From positions 62,001 to 126,000 of the forward strand of contig RFFC02000004.1 of NCBI GenBank assembly GCA_005518205.2: DNA of 64,000 nt, read 5' to 3'. The stretch comes from Hormoscilla sp. GUM202. GTDB taxonomy: Bacteria; Cyanobacteriota; Cyanobacteriia; Cyanobacteriales; Desertifilaceae. The notes beneath the pieces are model-generated. The model did not search any database. It was given only the letters and a program-made list of their open reading frames with translations, and was not told the DNA's origin. The stretch's first letter is position 1. Each line of letters begins with the position of its first letter. A program made the position numbers and the translations under genes. Positions 6,161-61,463 of this stretch are shown piece by piece.

Positions 6161-6325
6161 TGGTATATACTAAAATTAGTACACAATTGTTTACATTACT
6201 CTCATCTACAGCAGTTATTGGGCTGCTGGCTGTCGGAGTCTTCTGTGTCCCCCGGGAGCGCTATTCGCACGTTCCCAGGCTGCGCGGTGGGAACGAGGGG
6301 GGGACACAGCGATGGCCTTGGCTTC

Positions 6326-6370
6326 TCGTGTCCAGAGACGCCCACCCAGGGTGGGCGCTCTCGGACACGA
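6326..6370. repeat. family A palindrome, minimal form
   Basis: TCGTGTCCAGAGACGCCCAC / GTGGGCGCTCTCGGACACGA around a few bases. This is the compact 45-base form without a nested insert, useful as the family reference. Confidence 0.85.
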
Positions 6371-7211: not shown

Positions 7212-7238
7212 TCGTTCCCAGGCTGAGCCTGGGAACGG
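7212..7238. repeat. family C palindrome after folE
   Basis: TCGTTCCCAGGCTGAGCCTGGGAACGG. Other members are at 14838, 27451, 43903, 46421, 61344 and 61435. Confidence 0.8.
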
Positions 7239-14837: not shown

Positions 14838-14863
14838 CGTTCCCAGGCTCCCGCCTGGGAACG
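14838..14863. repeat. family C palindrome
   Basis: CGTTCCCAGGCTCCCGCCTGGGAACG, perfect arms. It directly follows the HEAT gene and could serve as its 3' stem. Confidence 0.8.
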
Positions 14864-27310: not shown

Positions 27311-27475
27311 TCTATGGCTGCGCCCCCAGCGCAGCGCTATCGGGATGCTAGCTGCTGCGCAGCGGCTGCGCACGCTACGCGAAAAATCGCGCAAAAACCC
27401 CTCAGACATCGTACTAACATAATTTGGGGTCTCACAACCTTTGCTAATTACGTTCCCTGGCTCTGCCTGGGAACA
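27311..27475. repeat. GC-rich palindromes and a family C unit before the pnp 3' end
   Basis: 27316-27400 holds GGCTGCGCCCCCAGCGCAGC and CTGCTGCGCAGCGGCTGCGC (related to 3617 and 31450). 27451-27474 is CGTTCCCTGGCTCTGCCTGG plus GAAC, family C. Confidence 0.6.
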
Positions 27476-42470: not shown

Positions 42471-43853
42471 TTAATGAAAAAGTTCTTGGCGCAGACGATA
42501 GAGAATTGTGTTAGAGTCTACCCGATCGAGAATGGATTTAATCACGGTATTAGCACCTAATGGTCCCCAGGTACAACCTTGTTCTAGATAAACTTGGGCG
42601 GCGGTTCCCACTTTGTAAGCACCATATCCAGCTAAACAAGCTTGGGCGATCGCGGCCCCGCCAAAAGCGGTAATTGCGGTAGCACCAGTAACAGCAGCGG
42701 TAGTTTTGCCCAACCCAAAGAGCAAACTACTGCCCAATTCACCCAGCATTAATCCCCCAGAACTAAATACAATGGTCTTCCACAGCTTACTAGCAGTATA
42801 GTTGGTCATGGGTAAATTATAGAGTTTTCCTAACTCCCGAATCAAAGCTAAATCAGTCACCGCCCCTCCCATAATATCTAATAGAGCGATCGGGTTGACG
42901 GCCACAGCTATGGCCTTATAGCGAGCAAACTTCCAAATTAACTCTTCCCCTTGTTCGCTGCGGTATTCCACAGTTTTGCGAGCAATACTAGTCTCTGCTT
43001 CCCTGGCCTGCACTAGTGCGTTTAATGCTAAGAGCGATCGCCCTTCGCGGTTGAGCAGATCGATAATTTTCTGCCGCAACTCATCCACCTGGGATGGGGG
43101 GGTTTCCCATTCATAACTAACAGTACCATCAGGCAACTCCACCCGCACCTGTCTGGACATTGGTGCCGCTGCCACCCGGACAATTTCATTGCGAGTCAGC
43201 AGGTTGCCACCAGTGCCTCCGGCGTCTTCCGCATGCTCTTGTCCTGAAGGACACGGCATGCTCCAGACACCGCCGAGTTGTTGTAACTTCCGATAAATTG
43301 CCTCCAAGTCCTGTTCTGGATAGAGGTCAATCTTATTAAACACCAAAATTAGCGGTTTTTGAGCCTGCTGGAGTTCCAAAAGTGCATCATACTCAGTGCG
43401 GGTGATATCCCCAGCGACCACAAATAAAATCAAGTCCGACTGCTGGGCCACCTGCTGGGCCATATCCGATCGCACTTGACCTGCTATTTCATCTAATCCC
43501 GGCGTGTCAATTAATTCCACCTGCACCCTCCCTCCCCCACCATCCGTCCATCGGACAGAACGGGGCCATTGGGTCACCCCATGAATGGGACCAGTTTGGA
43601 GGATTTTTTCCCCCAATAAAGCATTCAAAACCGCTGACTTGCCCCGACTGACTAGACCAAAAACCGCGATTCTAATTACAGTATTATCCAGTTTATCCAG
43701 TACCGACTTCAACAGATCCAGTTCCGGTTGCACTGGCAGCGATCGCATGTGACGGTGTCCGTATTGAGACAAGGCTTGCCTGATACTAGCACGAGCCTGA
43801 TTTAGGTGAACTCCTTGTGCTAACCCATCACCGGATTTATTTTTTCCCATCAT
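42471..43853 (-). CDS. dynamin-like / Era-like GTPase with C-terminal membrane helices
   Basis: 460 residues. The G domain shows P-loop GLVSRGKSAVLNALLG, G3 DTPGLDEI and G4 NKIDLYPE. The C-terminal region (AVAVNPIALLDIMGGAV, SLLFGLGKTTAAVTGATAITAFGGAAI) is the hydrophobic DUF697-like part common in cyanobacterial GTPases. Between them, residues about 195-212 (GVWSMPCPSGQEHAEDAG) are encoded by a family-B DNA repeat (43219-43275) that also occurs in dnaX in a different frame, so this linker was probably gained by repeat insertion. AGGATAA precedes the ATG. Confidence 0.85.
   Translation of the reverse strand: MMGKNKSGDGLAQGVHLNQARASIRQALSQYGHRHMRSLPVQPELDLLKSVLDKLDNTVIRIAVFGLVSRGKSAVLNALLGEKILQTGPIHGVTQWPRSVRWTDGGGGRVQVELIDTPGLDEIAGQVRSDMAQQVAQQSDLILFVVAGDITRTEYDALLELQQAQKPLILVFNKIDLYPEQDLEAIYRKLQQLGGVWSMPCPSGQEHAEDAGGTGGNLLTRNEIVRVAAAPMSRQVRVELPDGTVSYEWETPPSQVDELRQKIIDLLNREGRSLLALNALVQAREAETSIARKTVEYRSEQGEELIWKFARYKAIAVAVNPIALLDIMGGAVTDLALIRELGKLYNLPMTNYTASKLWKTIVFSSGGLMLGELGSSLLFGLGKTTAAVTGATAITAFGGAAIAQACLAGYGAYKVGTAAQVYLEQGCTWGPLGANTVIKSILDRVDSNTILYRLRQELFH
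43219..43275. repeat. family B repeat inside the GTPase gene
   Basis: CCGGCGTCTTCCGCATGCTC, TTGTCCTGAAGGACACGGCA, TGCTCCAGACACCGCCG. Relatives: 54057-54113 inside dnaX, and shortened forms at 46566-46615 and 52000-52040. Confidence 0.88.
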
Positions 43854-43902
43854 TTATCCTAATTCTACATCTATGCTGCACCACCACAACAGATCCAAGG
43901 CC

Positions 43903-43930
43903 GTTCCCAGGCTCCCGCCTGGGAACGAGA
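43903..43930. repeat. family C palindrome with an empty-site counterpart
   Basis: GTTCCCAGGCTCCCGCCTGG plus GAACGAGA lies between AAGGCC and GTGAGAAACTGCC. The two other copies of this flank (near 49120-49145 and 51765-51790, opposite strand) have only AAAAA at that place. Confidence 0.88.
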
Positions 43931-44022
43931 GTGAGAAACTGCCAGTCCGATAGAGTTAACCCCTTTCATCCCTATTCTCAACCCCGATCGATGGAAATTA
44001 CCGGACTTTTTGGTTGTTGCTC

Positions 44023-46266
44023 TCACAACTCACCCGATCCAGGCGATCCGGGATGCGCGGGATGCGCTGTTAATGCTGCTTTAACCTGGGCAAACACACT
44101 CGGCCAGTCTCCCAGTTTTGCTTGACGAAATAGCCGCATTGTCGGATACCAGGGACTATCGGATCGATCGAGCAACCAGCGCCAGTCAGGAGAAAATGGT
44201 AGCAGCACCCAGACAGGTTTTCCTAAAGCACCTGCTAAATGGGCAACTGCTGTATCTACAGATATAACTAAATCTAATTGTGAGATAACAGCAGCAGTAT
44301 CAGCGAAGTCATGCAACAGCTCTCTTAAATCCTGTATAGGTGCCCCATCTAGGATATCTGTATGTTCCTTTTGCAGACTATAAAGAGAAATCCCTGGTAT
44401 CTGGGAAAGTTCCAGAAACAGGGACACTGGACAAGACCGCTTGCTAGCTGTAGCACCTTTAGGATCACTAGCCCACACAATGCCGACTTTTACCTCTCCT
44501 TCCGTTCGTAGTAATTCACTGTACTTGACGGCGTCCTTCTCTTCGTACAAATAGGGTATTCGAGCCGGAATAGTTTCTATAGTCGTACCCAGGATGTGGG
44601 GGAGACTCATCAGGGGGACTTGCACGTCAAATGCTGGTAATGGTTCGCCTTTGACTACCACCTCTTGAACCCCAGAGACCGTAGTCAACAAGCGCCTGAG
44701 AGCCCGATAGGTTTCCAGAATTACTTTACCAGCACCCCGCTGGGCTACTAAGGGTGCGTAACGGACGAACTGGATAGCGTCCCCGTATCCCTGTTCTGTA
44801 TGTAGGAGAATAGTTTTTCCTGCCAGTGGCGAACCATCCCAAAGAGGTTTTCCCAAGCGTTCTTCGAGGGTCTGTGACTTTGTCCACTCGCGCCAGCGCC
44901 ATTCATATTCTACAAATCCTTGCTGAAAGTCCTGCAATAATAACGAGCACATTCCCAGATTTAAGTGGGCCGTTACTGCATCTGGGTTTAAGGCAACAGC
45001 ATGGCGGTAATAGCCGATCGCCTCTTGTATTTTCAGTTGTTCTTGCACGGCAACACCCAGGTTGCTGTAGGCATCGGCAAGGTCTGGTTTCAGGGCGATC
45101 GCCTTTTGGTGGCATGCGATCGCCTCTGCTAACTTACCCTGCTCTTGCAAAGCGGTCCCCATCTTATCGTAAGCTCCTGGATAATCTGGTTTAATTGCCA
45201 GAGCCTGGCGATATTGTCCGATCGCTTCTGCTATTTTACCCTGCTCTTGCAGTATCATCCCCAGGTTGCAAATTGCTTCCGGATAGTTTGGCTTTAAGGC
45301 GATCGCCTGTTCACACTGTTTCGCCGCCTCTGCTAAGTTCTCACATCCTTGATAGTATATACCCAACTGATTGTAAAATTCCGCCTTTGGTTTAATGGCA
45401 ATGGCTTTTTTACAATAGGCGATCGCCTCTTTTCTACGGTTTTGCTCTTCCATAATTTTGGCTGCATTATAGTAAGCATCCGCACAGTTGGGGTTAATGC
45501 TGATGGCCTTTTCGTAGCAGGCGAGCGCTTGTTCCTTATGGCCCAAGGAGCACAAAATTACGCCCAAATTATTGTGCAGGCTCATATCCTGGGGATTGAG
45601 AGCGATCGCCTCCCGGTATACGGATACTGCTTCTGCTAGCTTCCCGGTATTTTGGAGACATACTCCCAACAAATTCATGGTTTCGCTATGTCCCGGATGA
45701 GCCAATAGCACTTGGTGACAGAGGGCGATCGCCTTGTCTTTTTCTCCCTTTTGATACCAACTAATCGCCTGTTGGTAATGAGCGCTCGCCTCTCGATAAC
45801 GCTTTTCTTGGCGACGCATTGCCGCCAATTTTTCATGGGTCGCGCCACTCTGGTGAGGCGATCCCACTTGCTGGTGCGTCTCGCGCAGCTCTAATCTTTT
45901 TCCCTGCCTTTCCAGGGCCAAAGCCAGGTTCTTATAAGCATCAGGATAATCAGGCTTCACCGCGATCGCCTGTTTGTAGGCAGCGATCGCCTGTTCTATT
46001 TTCCCCTGTTCCCAGAAGCTAGCCCCCAGATTATTATAAGTTTCAGGCCAATCTGGCTTTATGGAGATCACCTGTTGGAAATAGTTGATCGCCCGATCGT
46101 ATTCCGGCGTCTGATAAGCAATAATTCCCAGCATCTGCATAGCTTCTACCTGATGAGGCTGCTGTTTGAGCATCGCCAAATAAACAGCCCTCGCTTTATC
46201 CAGACGTCCGGCTTTGTAGTGACTCAAAGCCTCTTTTAACCAATCATTATCTGCTTGCTGTACCAT
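44023..46266 (-). CDS. TPR protein with glycosyltransferase-like C-terminus, intact copy
   Basis: 747 residues from ATG 46266, chosen because the paralogue at 49378 begins the same way (MVQQADN). About 14 TPR units (AIAAYKQAIAVKPDYPDAYK type) lead to a C-terminal domain of about 270 residues (LLHTEQGYGDAIQFVRYAPL, VILETYRALRRLL, VGIVWASDP, LDLVISVDTAVAHLAGALGKPVW) like those of GT9- or SPINDLY-type proteins. The donor and target are unknown. A 100-bp IS630-derived MITE ends four bases before the start codon, where the paralogue has AGGAGG, so translation of this copy may be impaired. Confidence 0.87.
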   Translation of the reverse strand: MVQQADNDWLKEALSHYKAGRLDKARAVYLAMLKQQPHQVEAMQMLGIIAYQTPEYDRAINYFQQVISIKPDWPETYNNLGASFWEQGKIEQAIAAYKQAIAVKPDYPDAYKNLALALERQGKRLELRETHQQVGSPHQSGATHEKLAAMRRQEKRYREASAHYQQAISWYQKGEKDKAIALCHQVLLAHPGHSETMNLLGVCLQNTGKLAEAVSVYREAIALNPQDMSLHNNLGVILCSLGHKEQALACYEKAISINPNCADAYYNAAKIMEEQNRRKEAIAYCKKAIAIKPKAEFYNQLGIYYQGCENLAEAAKQCEQAIALKPNYPEAICNLGMILQEQGKIAEAIGQYRQALAIKPDYPGAYDKMGTALQEQGKLAEAIACHQKAIALKPDLADAYSNLGVAVQEQLKIQEAIGYYRHAVALNPDAVTAHLNLGMCSLLLQDFQQGFVEYEWRWREWTKSQTLEERLGKPLWDGSPLAGKTILLHTEQGYGDAIQFVRYAPLVAQRGAGKVILETYRALRRLLTTVSGVQEVVVKGEPLPAFDVQVPLMSLPHILGTTIETIPARIPYLYEEKDAVKYSELLRTEGEVKVGIVWASDPKGATASKRSCPVSLFLELSQIPGISLYSLQKEHTDILDGAPIQDLRELLHDFADTAAVISQLDLVISVDTAVAHLAGALGKPVWVLLPFSPDWRWLLDRSDSPWYPTMRLFRQAKLGDWPSVFAQVKAALTAHPAHPGSPGSGEL

Positions 46267-46270
46267 TTTA

Positions 46271-46370
46271 AGTACATGGACAAAATTAATTTCACACACT
46301 CTCTCGCGCTAGTCTCCATATCCGGAGCATGTCGCCCATGGCTATGTGCAATTATTTTTGTCTAACTACT
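46271..46370. mobile_element. 100-bp MITE with IS630-type ends
   Basis: Left end AGTACATGGACAAAATTAAT, right end (reverse complement) AGTAGTTAGACAAAAATAAT, both followed by TGCACA or TTCACA. TA at 46269-46270 and 46371-46372. The ends match those of the full IS630 copies, so its transposase could move this element. Confidence 0.88.
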
Positions 46371-46856
46371 TACATGTATATAGCCCGCGCAGGCGGGCTT
46401 TGTTCGTGTAGCCGGGCCCCTCGTTCCCACGGCTCCGCCTGGGAACGGGTGAGGGCGCGTCCGCCCCAACGGGTTTTGACCACACCCTAATTGGCGATCG
46501 GCCTGCGGACTTTCGTTTCCGGAGCGCGCTCCCGGAAACGACCGAAAAATCGCATTCCGTCGGGGCACGTCTTCCGCATGCTCTTGCTGAAGGACGAGCC
46601 ATGGGACAGACACCGCAAGGTAACATGGAGATCGCCTGGGGGTAGAGGCAGGGCATCAATAATAGGCGTTGCACATTTTGGGGATGATGCCATTGTTTGC
46701 ACTAGCAAAACGCTACTGAAAGTGGCTTATAGTCTACGTTTAAGAGTTATGCAAAGAGACCCATCATCCCGTGATTGTGCAACGCTTCTTTTCTCTCGAT
46801 GTCCTCCCTATCTCAGAAGATTGCCAAAGTAGGAGATAGAGGGTCGGAGCTTTCAA
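46371..46856. other. repeat-rich gap between the TPR gene and LRR-RTX gene
   Basis: REP hairpin GCCCGC-GCAG-GCGGGC (about 46383), family C palindrome (46421-46447), GTTTCCGGAGCGCGCTCCGG type palindrome (46509-46530), and a shortened family B unit (46566-46615). No supported gene. Confidence 0.6.
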
Positions 46857-49084: not shown

Positions 49085-49290
49085 TGTTTGTCTTATGAAA
49101 TTTCACCCATCGGACTGGCAGTTTCTCACTTTTTGGCCTTGGACCTGTTGTGGTGGTACACAGTAGATGTAGAATCAGAAGAAAACTCCTTCCAGGAACT
49201 TGTTGTTCCTGAAAAGAGTTTTCCAGCCGCAGGTCTGTTAGTCGTGTCCAGAGACGCCCACCCATAAGGTGGGCGCTCTCGGACACGAAA
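49085..49290. repeat. third copy of the duplicated flank and a family A palindrome
   Basis: 49108-49170 (CATCGGACTGGCAGTTTCTC, then TTTTTGGCCTTGGACCTG) repeats the flank that also lies at 43862-43960 and 51755-51818. 49242-49288 is a family A palindrome. Confidence 0.75.
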
Positions 49291-49377: not shown

Positions 49378-51686
49378 ATGGTACAGCAAGCAGATAATGC
49401 TCGATTAAAAGAGGCTTTGAGTCACTACCAAGCCGGACGTCTGGATAAAGCGAGGGCTGTTTATTTGGCGATGCTTTCCCAGCAGCCAGAATTAGTAGAG
49501 GCTATGCAAATGCTGGGAATTATTGCTTATCAGACGAAGGAATACGATCGGGCGATCGGCTATTTCCAACAGGTGATATCCATAAAGCCAGATTGGCCTG
49601 AGACTTATAATAATCTGGGGGCTAGCTTCTGGGAACAGGGAAAAATAGAACAGGCGATCGCTGCCTACAAACAGGCGATCGCAGTGAAGCCTGATTATCA
49701 TGATGCTTATAATAACCTGGTTGTGGCCCTGGAAAAACAGGGAAAAAGATTAGAGCTGCGCGAGACGCACCAGCAAGTGGTACCGCCGATCCGGAGTGGC
49801 GCGACCCCTGAAAAATTGGCGGCGATGCGTCGCCAAGAAAAGCGTTATCGAGAGGCGAACGCTCATTACCAACAGGCGATTAGTTGGTATCAAAAGGGAG
49901 AAAAAGACAAGGCGATCGCCCTCTGTCACCAAGTGCTATTGGCTCATCCGGGACATAGCGAAACCATGAATTTGTTGGGAGTATGTCTCCAAAATACCGG
50001 GAAGCTAGCAGAAGCAGTATCCGTATACCGGGAGGCGATCGCTCTCAATCCCCAGGATATGGGCCTGCACAATAATTTGGGCGTAGTTTTGTGCTCCTTG
50101 GGCCATAAGGAACAAGCGCTCGCCTGCTACGAAAAGGCGATCGCCATTGACCCCAACTGTGCGGATGCTTACTATAATGCCGCCAAAATTATGGAAGAGC
50201 AAAACCGTAGAAAAGAGGCGATCGCCTATTGTCAAAAAGCCATTGCCATTAAATCAGAGGCGAAATTTTACAATGAGTTGGGTATATAGCATTTCTCGAA
50301 ATTCTGAGGTACAGCCGCCAGCCATGAAAACCACTGATAGCAATGCTTTCACTGTACCTCACCTTATTGAAAAATGCTATATACTATCAAAGATGTGGGA
50401 ACTTAGCAGAGGCGGCGAGGCAGTATGAACAGGCGATCGCCTTAAAGCCGAACTGTCTGGAAGCAATTTGCAACCTGGGGATAATACTGAAAAAGCAGGG
50501 TAAAATAGCAGAGGCGCTTGGACAATATCGCCAGGCTTTGGCAATTAAACCAGATTATCCAGAAGTATACTATAGGATGGGGCTCGCTTGGCAAGAGCAA
50601 CGTAAGTTTGCAGAGGCGATCGCATGCTACCAAAAGGCGATCGCCCTGAAACCAGACCTTGCCGATGCCTACATCGACCTGGGTATTGCCCTGCAAGAAC
50701 AACTGAAATTACAAGAGGCGATGAGCTATTACCGCCATGCTATTGCCTTAAAGCCAGATGCAGCAAAGGCCCACATGGGTAGTGCGTGGTGCTTGTTATT
50801 ATTGCAGGACTTTCAGCAAGGATTTGCAGAATATGAATGGCGCTGGCGGACAAAATCACAGACCCCGGAAGAACGCTTGGGAAAACCCCCTTGGGATGGT
50901 TCGCCACTGGCAGGAAAAACTATTCTCCTACATACAGAACAGGGACACGGGGACGGTATCCAGTTCGTCCGTTATGCGCCTTTAGTAGCCCAGCGGGGTG
51001 CTGGTAAAGTAATTTTGGAAACATATCGGTCTCTCAGGCGCTTGTTGACTACGGCCCCTGGGGTTCAGGAGGTTGTACTCAGGGGCGAACCATTACCAGC
51101 ATTTGACCTGCAAGTCCCCCTAATGAGTCTCCCCCACATCCTGAATACGGCGATAGAAACTATTCCGGCTCGAATACCCTATTTGTACGCTGAAGAGAAG
51201 GACACCGTCAAGTACAGTGAATTACTACGAACGGAAGGAGAGGTAAAAGTCGGCATTGTGTGGGCTGCTAATGCTAAAAGTCATGCAGCTAGCAAGCGGT
51301 CTTGTCCAGTTTCCCTATTTCTGGAACTTTCCCAGATCCCAGGAATTTCTCTTTATAGTCTGCAAAAGGAACATACAGATATCCTGGATGGGGCACCTAT
51401 ACAGGATTTAAGAGAGCTGTTGCATGACTTCGCTGATACTGCTGCTGTTATCTCACAATTAGATTTAGTTATATCTGTAGATACAGCAGTTGCCCATTTA
51501 GCAGGTGCTTTAGGAAAACCTGTCTGGGTGCTGCTACCTTTTTCTCCTGACTGGCGCTGGTTGCTCGATCGATCCGATAGCCCTTGGTATCCGACAATGC
51601 GCCTGTTCCGCCAAGCAAAACCGGGAGACTGGCAGAGTGTGTTTGCCCAGGTTAAAGCAGCATTAACTGTCCCGGGTGAGTTGTGA
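49378..51686 (+). pseudogene. TPR-glycosyltransferase-like gene, second copy, broken by a 93-bp MITE
   Basis: An inverted paralogue of 44023-46266. It has AGGAGG four bases before its ATG. The first frame ends at 50289 after YNELGI, and the second (50343-51686) resumes as YYQRCGNLAEAARQ. The intact copy reads YNQLGIYYQGCENLAEA, so the interruption is exactly the element at 50287-50379. Removing it and one TA gives GGT ATA TAC TAT CAA, which restores one open frame to the C-terminal domain (KVILETYRSLRRLL, VDTAVAHLAGALGKPVW). The rest of the gene looks undamaged, so the insertion is recent. Confidence 0.9.
50287..50379. mobile_element. 93-bp MITE with TA duplication
   Basis: Terminal repeats TAGCATTTCTCGAAATTCTG with GAGGTACAG, against the other end (reverse complement) TAGCATTTTTCAATAAGGTG with AGGTACAG. 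TA on both sides (50285-50286, 50380-50381). It inserts 95 bases into the TPR gene. Confidence 0.9.
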
Positions 51687-51983
51687 GAGCAACAACCAAA
51701 AATTCCGGTAATTTCCATCGTTCGGGGTTGAGAATAGGAAGAAAAGGGGTTAACTCCATCGGACTGGCAGTTTCTCACTTTTTGGCCTTGGACCTGTTGT
51801 GGTGGTGCAGCATAGATGCGGAGATATTACTGTTAACAGTAGAGGTGGTATGGGCAGTACTTTTACTTTTGATATCCAAGTCTATCTGGCATCTGCGCCT
51901 GAGGTGCAGATCCAAATGCCAAAAAGGCGGGCGATCGGGCTATAACCGGAACAACCTAGATATCGCCTGCTCGTAGCTTCCCT

Positions 51984-53792: not shown

Positions 53793-55811
53793 TTAGAAGG
53801 GGATCTCATCTTCTTCATCATCCTCTTCTGCAACCCGATCGGGTTGCTGCTGGTCGGTAGCTTTGGGATGGGTTCTCTCGACGGGGGTTTGGTTTCCGAT
53901 TTTTCCGGAACGGTACTCTGAGGACAAGGATATCAACTCTCCGCCGAAAGATGCAGCCAAGCTTTCAGCAGCTGACGTCACAGCCTTTTCCTCCTGGCTA
54001 CGGGCTTGCATCCTGGCAGATTCTTTGGTAATTGCAACTGTTGTGTTGGCTGCGTCCGGCGTCTTCCGCGTGCTCTTGTCCTGAAGGACTCGTAGCGACC
54101 GAGACACCGCCGGCTGGTTTGTTTCCGTTGTCGGACGGGTGTTGGTGGGGGATGGCGGCTGTGGAACAGCAGCAACTTGAGACTGCTGGTCTGATGCTAC
54201 TACTAACTTTACCGTGACGGGGCCCTGGAGAACTGTAGAAAAAGCTGATTCCACGGAGGGCAAAAATCTCTTAACCATCTCCAGCAAGGGCTTTGAGCTG
54301 ATGCTAACCTTGATGGTAGAACCCTCAATTGCCAGTAGCCTTCCGTGTTCAGAGAGGAGTGCGCGAGTCGTGTTAAACTCGATCGCCTTAATTGCCTGTT
54401 GCCAAATTTGCTCGTATTCAATTGACTCAGGCATCTCCACCGGTTCAACTTTAGCCCTAGGTTCCTCTCGTGTCCGAGAGCGCCCACCCACAGGGTGGGC
54501 GTCTCTGGACACGACTACCGGATTTGCTGTTGGTGCAGCAGGAGATTTGTTCTTCATTGCTGCAGAGGCGATCGCACTTTGGGGAGGTTTTTCTACGGGG
54601 GACTCACTGCGATCTGTTTTTTCTGGCTGTGAAGATGTGATAGTTTTATTTGCAGCCTGAGAAACCTGTTTGCTATTGCGATCGGTCCGCGGACGGCCCG
54701 AAAAATCGGGCTGTTGAGTGAGGGCTGATGGCAACAAACCCAACAGGGTCACTTCTAACCATAAACTGGGTTGGGTAGTGTGTTTGATTTGATATTCACT
54801 ATCTTTGAGGTGCTTTTGTCCTGCTAAAATTATTGATGGGGAAAACTTGTCAGCTAACTTACATAATGCCTCCCAAGTGGGGGGAGTCATAGCCACTAAA
54901 TCACTCCGCTGGGGTGCTGTTTTGGCAATTAGTAAATCTCGGTAGAAACTGGCGATGTTTTGCAGGAAGATCGCCGGTTCCTTGCCGCGCTCGACGAGCG
55001 ATCGGCATTGTGCGAGTAAACTCAGGTTATCGTCAGATGCGATCGCGCTTATCAGGGCAAGCAAATCCCGTTCTGGCACCGAACCCACCAAATCCCAGAC
55101 ATGTTCTGGCCTCACCTCACCGGGCTGTAAGCTGAGTTGATCGAGTAAACTTTCGGCATCCCGCAGTCCCCCTTGGGAAATTTGGGCAGCTAGGGTAATA
55201 GCTTCATCAGTAATGGCGATGTTTTCTTGCTCGGCAATGTGCCTCAAATGCTTTACCATTGCTGCTAAAGGAATGCGACGAAAATCAAATCGCTGACAGC
55301 GAGAGATGATGGTGGGCAAAACTCTTTGAGGGTCAGTTGTTGCTAGCACAAAGACTACTCTTTCTGGGGGTTCTTCTAATGTCTTGAGCATCGCGTTGAA
55401 TGCCGAGGTACTAAGCATATGAATTTCGTCTATTATGTATACTTTGTAGCGACCTCGGACTGGGGCAAATTGTGCTTTTTCGATCAGTTCTCTGATATTA
55501 TCAACCCCGGTGTTGCTGGCGGCGTCAATTTCGATTACGTCTAGGGATGTGCCTTTGGTAATGGTATGGCACATCTGACATTCGCCGCAAGGGGTATCGG
55601 TAGGTCCATTGCTGCTCAAACAGTTGAGAGATTTGGCGAGAATGCGGGCGCTGGAGGTTTTGCCCGTGCCTCGGGGACCGGCAAATAGGTAGGCGGGGGC
55701 GATCCGGTTGGCGCGCAGGGCGTTGCTTAAGGTGGTGGAGATCGCCTCTTGTCCCACCAGTTGGGCGAAAGTCTGGGGGCGATACTTCTGGTGCAGGGGT
55801 TCGTAACTCAT
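53793..55811 (-). CDS. dnaX: DNA polymerase III gamma/tau subunit
   Basis: 672 residues. The clamp-loader ATPase: Walker A FAGPRGTGKTSSARILAKSL, zinc site CGECQMCHTI, Walker B IDEIHMLSTSAFNAMLKTLEEPP, sensor 1 FVLATTDPQR, and domain III QISQGGLRDAESLLDQLSLQ. No intein is present, although several cyanobacterial dnaX genes have one. The linker beyond about residue 370 contains three repeat-derived segments: DFSGRPRTDRN (family E, 54680-54713), VVSRDAHPVGGRSRTRE (family A, 54468-54514) and SLRVLQDKSTRKTPDA (family B, 54057-54113). A short family-E motif encodes SGKIG near the C-terminus. All leave the frame open. Confidence 0.95.
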   Translation of the reverse strand: MSYEPLHQKYRPQTFAQLVGQEAISTTLSNALRANRIAPAYLFAGPRGTGKTSSARILAKSLNCLSSNGPTDTPCGECQMCHTITKGTSLDVIEIDAASNTGVDNIRELIEKAQFAPVRGRYKVYIIDEIHMLSTSAFNAMLKTLEEPPERVVFVLATTDPQRVLPTIISRCQRFDFRRIPLAAMVKHLRHIAEQENIAITDEAITLAAQISQGGLRDAESLLDQLSLQPGEVRPEHVWDLVGSVPERDLLALISAIASDDNLSLLAQCRSLVERGKEPAIFLQNIASFYRDLLIAKTAPQRSDLVAMTPPTWEALCKLADKFSPSIILAGQKHLKDSEYQIKHTTQPSLWLEVTLLGLLPSALTQQPDFSGRPRTDRNSKQVSQAANKTITSSQPEKTDRSESPVEKPPQSAIASAAMKNKSPAAPTANPVVVSRDAHPVGGRSRTREEPRAKVEPVEMPESIEYEQIWQQAIKAIEFNTTRALLSEHGRLLAIEGSTIKVSISSKPLLEMVKRFLPSVESAFSTVLQGPVTVKLVVASDQQSQVAAVPQPPSPTNTRPTTETNQPAVSRSLRVLQDKSTRKTPDAANTTVAITKESARMQARSQEEKAVTSAAESLAASFGGELISLSSEYRSGKIGNQTPVERTHPKATDQQQPDRVAEEDDEEDEIPF
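54057..54113. repeat. family B repeat inside dnaX
   Basis: CCGGCGTCTTCCGCGTGCTC, TTGTCCTGAAGGACTCGTAG, CGACCGAGACACCGCCGG. Same DNA family as 43219-43275, but translated in another frame. Confidence 0.88.
54468..54514. repeat. family A palindrome inside dnaX
   Basis: TCGTGTCCGAGAGCGCCCAC / GGGTGGGCGTCTCTGGACAC plus GA, a complete member in the coding sequence, read on the minus strand as VVSRDAHPVGGRSRTRE. Confidence 0.92.
54680..54713. repeat. family E repeat inside dnaX
   Basis: GATCGGTCCGCGGACGGCCC plus GAAAAATCGGGC; the opposite-strand form is at 56176-56215 in the TPR relic. Confidence 0.85.
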
Positions 55812-61343: not shown

Positions 61344-61463
61344 CTCGTTCCCTGGCAGAGCCTGGGAACGGCAGAGCCTCCAGATATGCTATATTATAAT
61401 TATTTCCTAGCTGTTATAAACTGGAGGCGTCCGAGTCGTTCCCAGCCAGAGACTGGGAACGAG
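61344..61463. repeat. 120-bp inverted structure from two family C palindromes
   Basis: 61344-61370 CTCGTTCCCTGGCAGAGCCT plus GGGAACG and 61435-61463 GTCGTTCCCAGCCAGAGACT plus GGGAACGAG. The spacer holds GCCTCCAG ... CTGGAGGC. Confidence 0.75.

Follow-up and report, generated by a model that had tools for sequence, protein, structure and literature searches.

The palindrome at positions 43903-43930 of the window (the whole 64,000-nucleotide stretch analyzed, C4:62001-126000 of the 6.87-Mb genome G000) is a member of a mobile family of 24-27-nt hairpins that has at least 70 exact copies in that genome. G000 was compared with two same-genus relatives, G001 (GM7CHS1pb) and G002 (SP12CHS1), both Hormoscilla MAGs of cyanobacterial symbionts of sponges; all three Hormoscilla genomes are metagenome assemblies. 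Taken as a whole, we consider it probable that the hairpins form a mobile family, that one of them inserted a single time into a homogentisate phytyltransferase (HPT) gene and was then copied by recombination, that template switching flips such hairpins in place and that new sites are entered by a replicative route.

The three copies of one flank reported in the sequence-only reading of the window were found to the base at 43863-43974, 49085-49170 and 51755-51818. The first, read on the + strand, is AAGGCC-GTTCCCAGGCTCCCGCCTGGGAACGAGA-GTGAGAAAC. The second and third (both listed on +) are on the opposite strand to the first and are empty, with TTTTT (AAAAA in the complement) at 49130-49134 and 51779-51783. 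The insert had been placed at 43897-43935, an interval that takes in flanking bases; the palindrome itself stands and occupies 43903-43926, followed by GAGA to 43930. This insert, the 24-nt hairpin GTTCCCAGGC-TCCC-GCCTGGGAAC plus GAGA, is present in place of AAAAA. To its left is a fragment of the HPT 3' end (43863-43902, +; the gene sense is the - strand) and to its right the same fragment continues (43931-43974, +). The occupied copy lies between a gene encoding a TPR-repeat protein (44023-46299, -) and a GTPase/DUF697 gene (42471-43853, -), and an inverted copy of the TPR gene (49378-51686, +, as two ORFs at 49378-50289 and 50343-51686) lies between the two empty fragments. Folded as DNA, the hairpin has an energy of -12.4 kcal/mol (z -6.2). 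A role as an intrinsic terminator was rejected, as no T run follows the hairpin, and no terminator-like site was found in 43700-44200. The Rfam search gave no match at the palindrome, and a text search of the literature with the palindrome returned only unrelated papers.

The flank is the 3' end of the gene for HPT, a vitamin-E gene. HPT is intact in G001 (C6, L053:6911-7876; 321 aa, NCBIfam PRK12887, 460.8 bits), a pseudogene in G002 (C191, L066:870-1447) and present only as fragments in G000. The AAAAA of the empty copies is TTTTT in the HPT sense and falls within the SHFLAL coding sequence of the intact G001 gene. Five other genera are likewise free of insert, with equal spacing at this site (five of eight outgroup loci were readable; the remaining three did not match the search motif). 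As the intact G001 gene and the outgroup HPT proteins both lack the insert, the empty state is ancestral, and these comparisons support the earlier proposal that the palindrome was probably gained rather than lost twice; in the strain comparison, it was not present in every orthologue of the flank. That the palindrome was ancestral and that precise loss left AAAAA in the other copies seems barely credible. Hairpins do shrink by deletion elsewhere (for example, G000 C8:43017 and C1:97078 relative to G001), but AAAAA is part of the intact HPT frame with its spacing kept in other genera, and precise loss would have had to restore an identical run of five bases wherever the flank is now empty. None of the six genomes of g3, a genus in the same taxonomic family, gave an HPT match.

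The flank is empty in two copies in the window, in two in G002 and, in G001, in three fragments as well as the intact gene. It is occupied at the focal site, in the G001 orthologue of that site (whose flanks are 89-96% identical) and in the HPT pseudogene of G002 C191, and no other flank copy found in the three strains is occupied. The G002 pseudogene has the identical insert at the identical position, whereas the gene that appears to be its orthologue in G001 is intact and empty. All three occupied copies share the 28-nt allele with its ragged ends and a linked T-to-C change about 37 nt from the insert (position 43967 in the window), reading CCCTTTC where the four comparable empty copies read CCCTTTT. 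The gain proposed by the sequence-only reading is thus supported, but its timing, after the duplication, is not supported as proposed, as the G001 orthologue and the G002 pseudogene are also occupied. The simplest and best-fitting reading, owing to the identical insert and the one linked base, is that a single insertion into a copy of the HPT gene probably replaced AAAAA without target duplication and that the occupied stretch would then have been copied between HPT fragments by recombination. To judge from these alleles, a new insertion into one of two duplicates explains the data less well than one insertion plus copying. It appears unlikely that this spot was hit twice independently, once in the ancestor of the focal locus (locus A) of G000 and G001 and once in the G002 HPT pseudogene. 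A hot spot is conceivable given that A-rich targets recur (AAAAA, TAAAAA and the TTTTT of C16:83407); however, the 28-nt allele, its ragged ends and the linked change are the same in all three copies. G002 has the GTPase gene of the focal locus without an adjacent HPT fragment, which indicates that locus A is a later arrangement or was lost in G002.

The palindrome family is not a product of chance, because its core counts are far above those of the controls. The exact core GTTCCCAGGN{3,8}CCTGGGAAC has 70 copies in the genome versus none for the reversed control pattern, and a looser form of the core occurs 16 times in contig C4 versus 0.1 times in shuffled sequence. A bulged, orientable subfamily of 42 copies mostly has GAGGG at one end. 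Comparison of the three strains on both strands (covering 0.66 Mb in G000, 0.82 in G001 and 0.34 in G002) gave five more clean pairs of occupied and empty orthologous sites. At C1:11696, the palindrome of G000 replaces TAAAAA, and the empty state is identical in G001 and G002, indicating gain in the third strain. The bases replaced at the other sites are ATTTAGGA (C17:69181), ATGAATCG (C4:235976), about TTTTTGT (C16:83407) and ATTACTTG (G001 C6:775883). Over the focal and the five further sites, about 5-8 target bases were replaced, about 6-8 when the five are taken alone, and no target duplication was found at any of them. C4:55272 and G000 C16:84226 have less clean ends and were left out of the five.

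Two insertions are in frame within conserved enzymes, HisZ (NF008940, 590 bits) and a long-chain acyl-CoA ligase. In HisZ, G000 and G002 have QRSQAGAWERD in place of LLN, whereas neither G001 nor any of eight outgroup species has the insert; the insert in the ligase is in a loop of variable length. The third coding case, C16:84226 in a phosphate-acetyltransferase-like protein, has the palindrome in G000 and G001 and lacks it in G002. A single tree cannot accommodate this distribution together with that of the HisZ and ligase inserts (G000 and G002), and thus recombination or loss also occurs. These alignments show the family apparently spreading into new sites, even within working genes, and the in-frame cases show that a conserved enzyme can gain about seven to eight residues through such an insertion.

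For the movement of the smallest mobile repeats, these strains provide clean before-and-after pairs of known polarity and exact ends, the target being replaced rather than duplicated. Derivation from a MITE or another DNA transposon was rejected, as no target site duplication of constant length was found and target bases were replaced. We infer that new sites would be entered by a replicative copying step on single-stranded DNA and not by cut-and-paste transposition; the step would be template switching or the work of a REP-type tyrosine transposase. Put forward as speculation is a family of tiny palindromes without REP tags that would enter DNA, reading frames included, by template switching during replication, replace about 5-8 bases and flip so often that orientation is near equilibrium even between strains with flanks 98-100% identical. 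The palindrome could also be, though this is less likely than not, a REP-type element that a REP-associated tyrosine transposase (RAYT) moves by acting on the single-stranded hairpin. RAYT-like proteins are encoded in all three strains (NCBIfam NF047646 is the best match of one of them, at 66 bits, below the cut-off of 80), and related hairpins lie upstream of RAYT genes, although only in G000 C17 and G001 C6. A strong RAYT match (E 1e-45) was found in 7 of 12 genomes having the palindrome versus 7 of 47 lacking it, an association confounded by relatedness, and three genomes with 9-14 copies have no strong match. Moreover, neither a GTAG nor a CGTC tag was found in 86 outward flanks, where about one was expected per tag. 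The RAYT partnership is kept as a rival because, in the other genomes with the palindrome, most RAYT genes have no such hairpin beside them.

Where both strains of a pair have a palindrome at a site, the hairpin of one is often inverted, exactly and over its full length, relative to that of the other; in the first set examined, the flanks of such sites were 98-100% identical. In the window, the family palindromes at 7214-7236 and 14839-14862 (the latter with the loop of the focal one) are exactly inverted in G001 and not in G002. That at 27452-27474 is exactly inverted in G001, arm mismatch included. At 61347-61369, G001 and G002 both differ from the family palindrome of the window, and two successive flips through overlapping hairpins explain the difference at the hairpin. 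In a survey of all hairpins rather than of the palindrome family only, exact inversions between G000 and G001 were found at 4 of 245 hairpins with arms of 6 bp, 1 of 76 with arms of 7, 3 of 40 with arms of 8-9 and 7 of 17 with arms of at least 10 bp (Fisher p 4e-7 versus arm 6); results from different strain pairs are not independent. As the survey covered hairpins of all kinds, inversion is a property of hairpins and not of the family, as template switching during replication would predict. These counts show, as a natural series in a bacterium, how the rate of hairpin inversion changes with arm length. Three metagenome assemblies were compared and hairpins are hard to sequence, and hence the insert difference or the inversions might be assembly artefacts at a hairpin. 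This is very unlikely, however: the occupied state recurs in three separate assemblies, and the inversions are exact over the whole hairpin, rise with arm length and mostly have flanks 98-100% identical. Intermolecular template switching at the replication fork would account for the inversions. What the flips point to is template switching at hairpins; they do not show that it drives insertion.

In its behavior, the family is like the known small mobile palindromes (SDR, REP and RPE elements), without a GTAG or CGTC tag. The SDRs of Nostoc and its relatives, described by Elhai and colleagues in 2008, are reportedly 21-27-nt cyanobacterial repeats, some with a hairpin, and are said to occur at sites that also exist in an empty state, in many cases inside other repeats. 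The present family is similarly a short dispersed cyanobacterial repeat, with a 24-nt core, 70 exact copies and six occupied/empty comparisons, a likeness to the general description of SDRs, of which eight families have been described. Exact in-place inversion and in-frame insertion are features of the Hormoscilla family that, to our knowledge, are not part of that SDR description.

Like REP elements, the palindromes are hairpins of 20-40 nt in tens to hundreds of copies, sometimes intragenic and in genomes with RAYT genes; intragenic REPs are known in many species (PMC3733652). REP elements have GTAG or CGTC tags (PMC3733652), whereas the Hormoscilla family has neither and its bulged subfamily has GAGGG at one end. 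The in-frame palindromes in conserved genes, here HisZ and the acyl-CoA ligase, recall the Rickettsia palindromic elements (RPE) in the placement of the insert. The host is unrelated, however, and the CGTC tag of the group to which RPE-4 and RPE-6 belong (PMC3733652) is missing. For the flips, the likeness is to exact inversion of a loop between intact arms, with long arms preferred. Small inversions of chloroplast genomes are hairpin spacer inversions by template switching. Hairpin spacer inversion by template switching has been described in yeast (PMC8604942). In contrast to the yeast and chloroplast cases, Hormoscilla is a bacterium, the frequency is high, the hairpins belong to a dispersed family and one locus flipped twice.

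Several further observations concern the family and other repeats. The distribution of the palindrome core is patchy: the core is frequent in genomes from distant genera of the order (G011, G019, G029, G041 and G055; 109 copies in the first of these) but absent from g2 and g3, genera sampled from the same taxonomic family. At G000 C1:11696, C1:17763 and C4:55272, the palindrome apparently lies within the loop formed by a longer, imperfect hairpin, CCCGGGAGCGC...CACTACCCGGG, and thus seems nested in a different repeat family. A second palindrome family, TCGTGTCCAGAGACGCCCACCC...GGGTGGGCGCTCTCGGACACGA, has at least four copies in the window (49242-49288, 6324-6370, 1414-1460 and 54468-54514). 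A lone Rfam CRISPR-DR28 match at 46381-46404 (-), near the family palindrome at 46423, scores 36.6 bits against a cut-off of 35 and is probably due to chance. G001 C2:2942551-2943192 contains near-identical repeats in which GTTCCCTGGTTCCACCTGGGAAC occurs seven times at intervals of about 101-110 bp. In G002 C66 (L214), an open frame of 2405 codons has seven family palindromes, three of which are in a 36-nt tandem array (EVAAFPGSPQGT).
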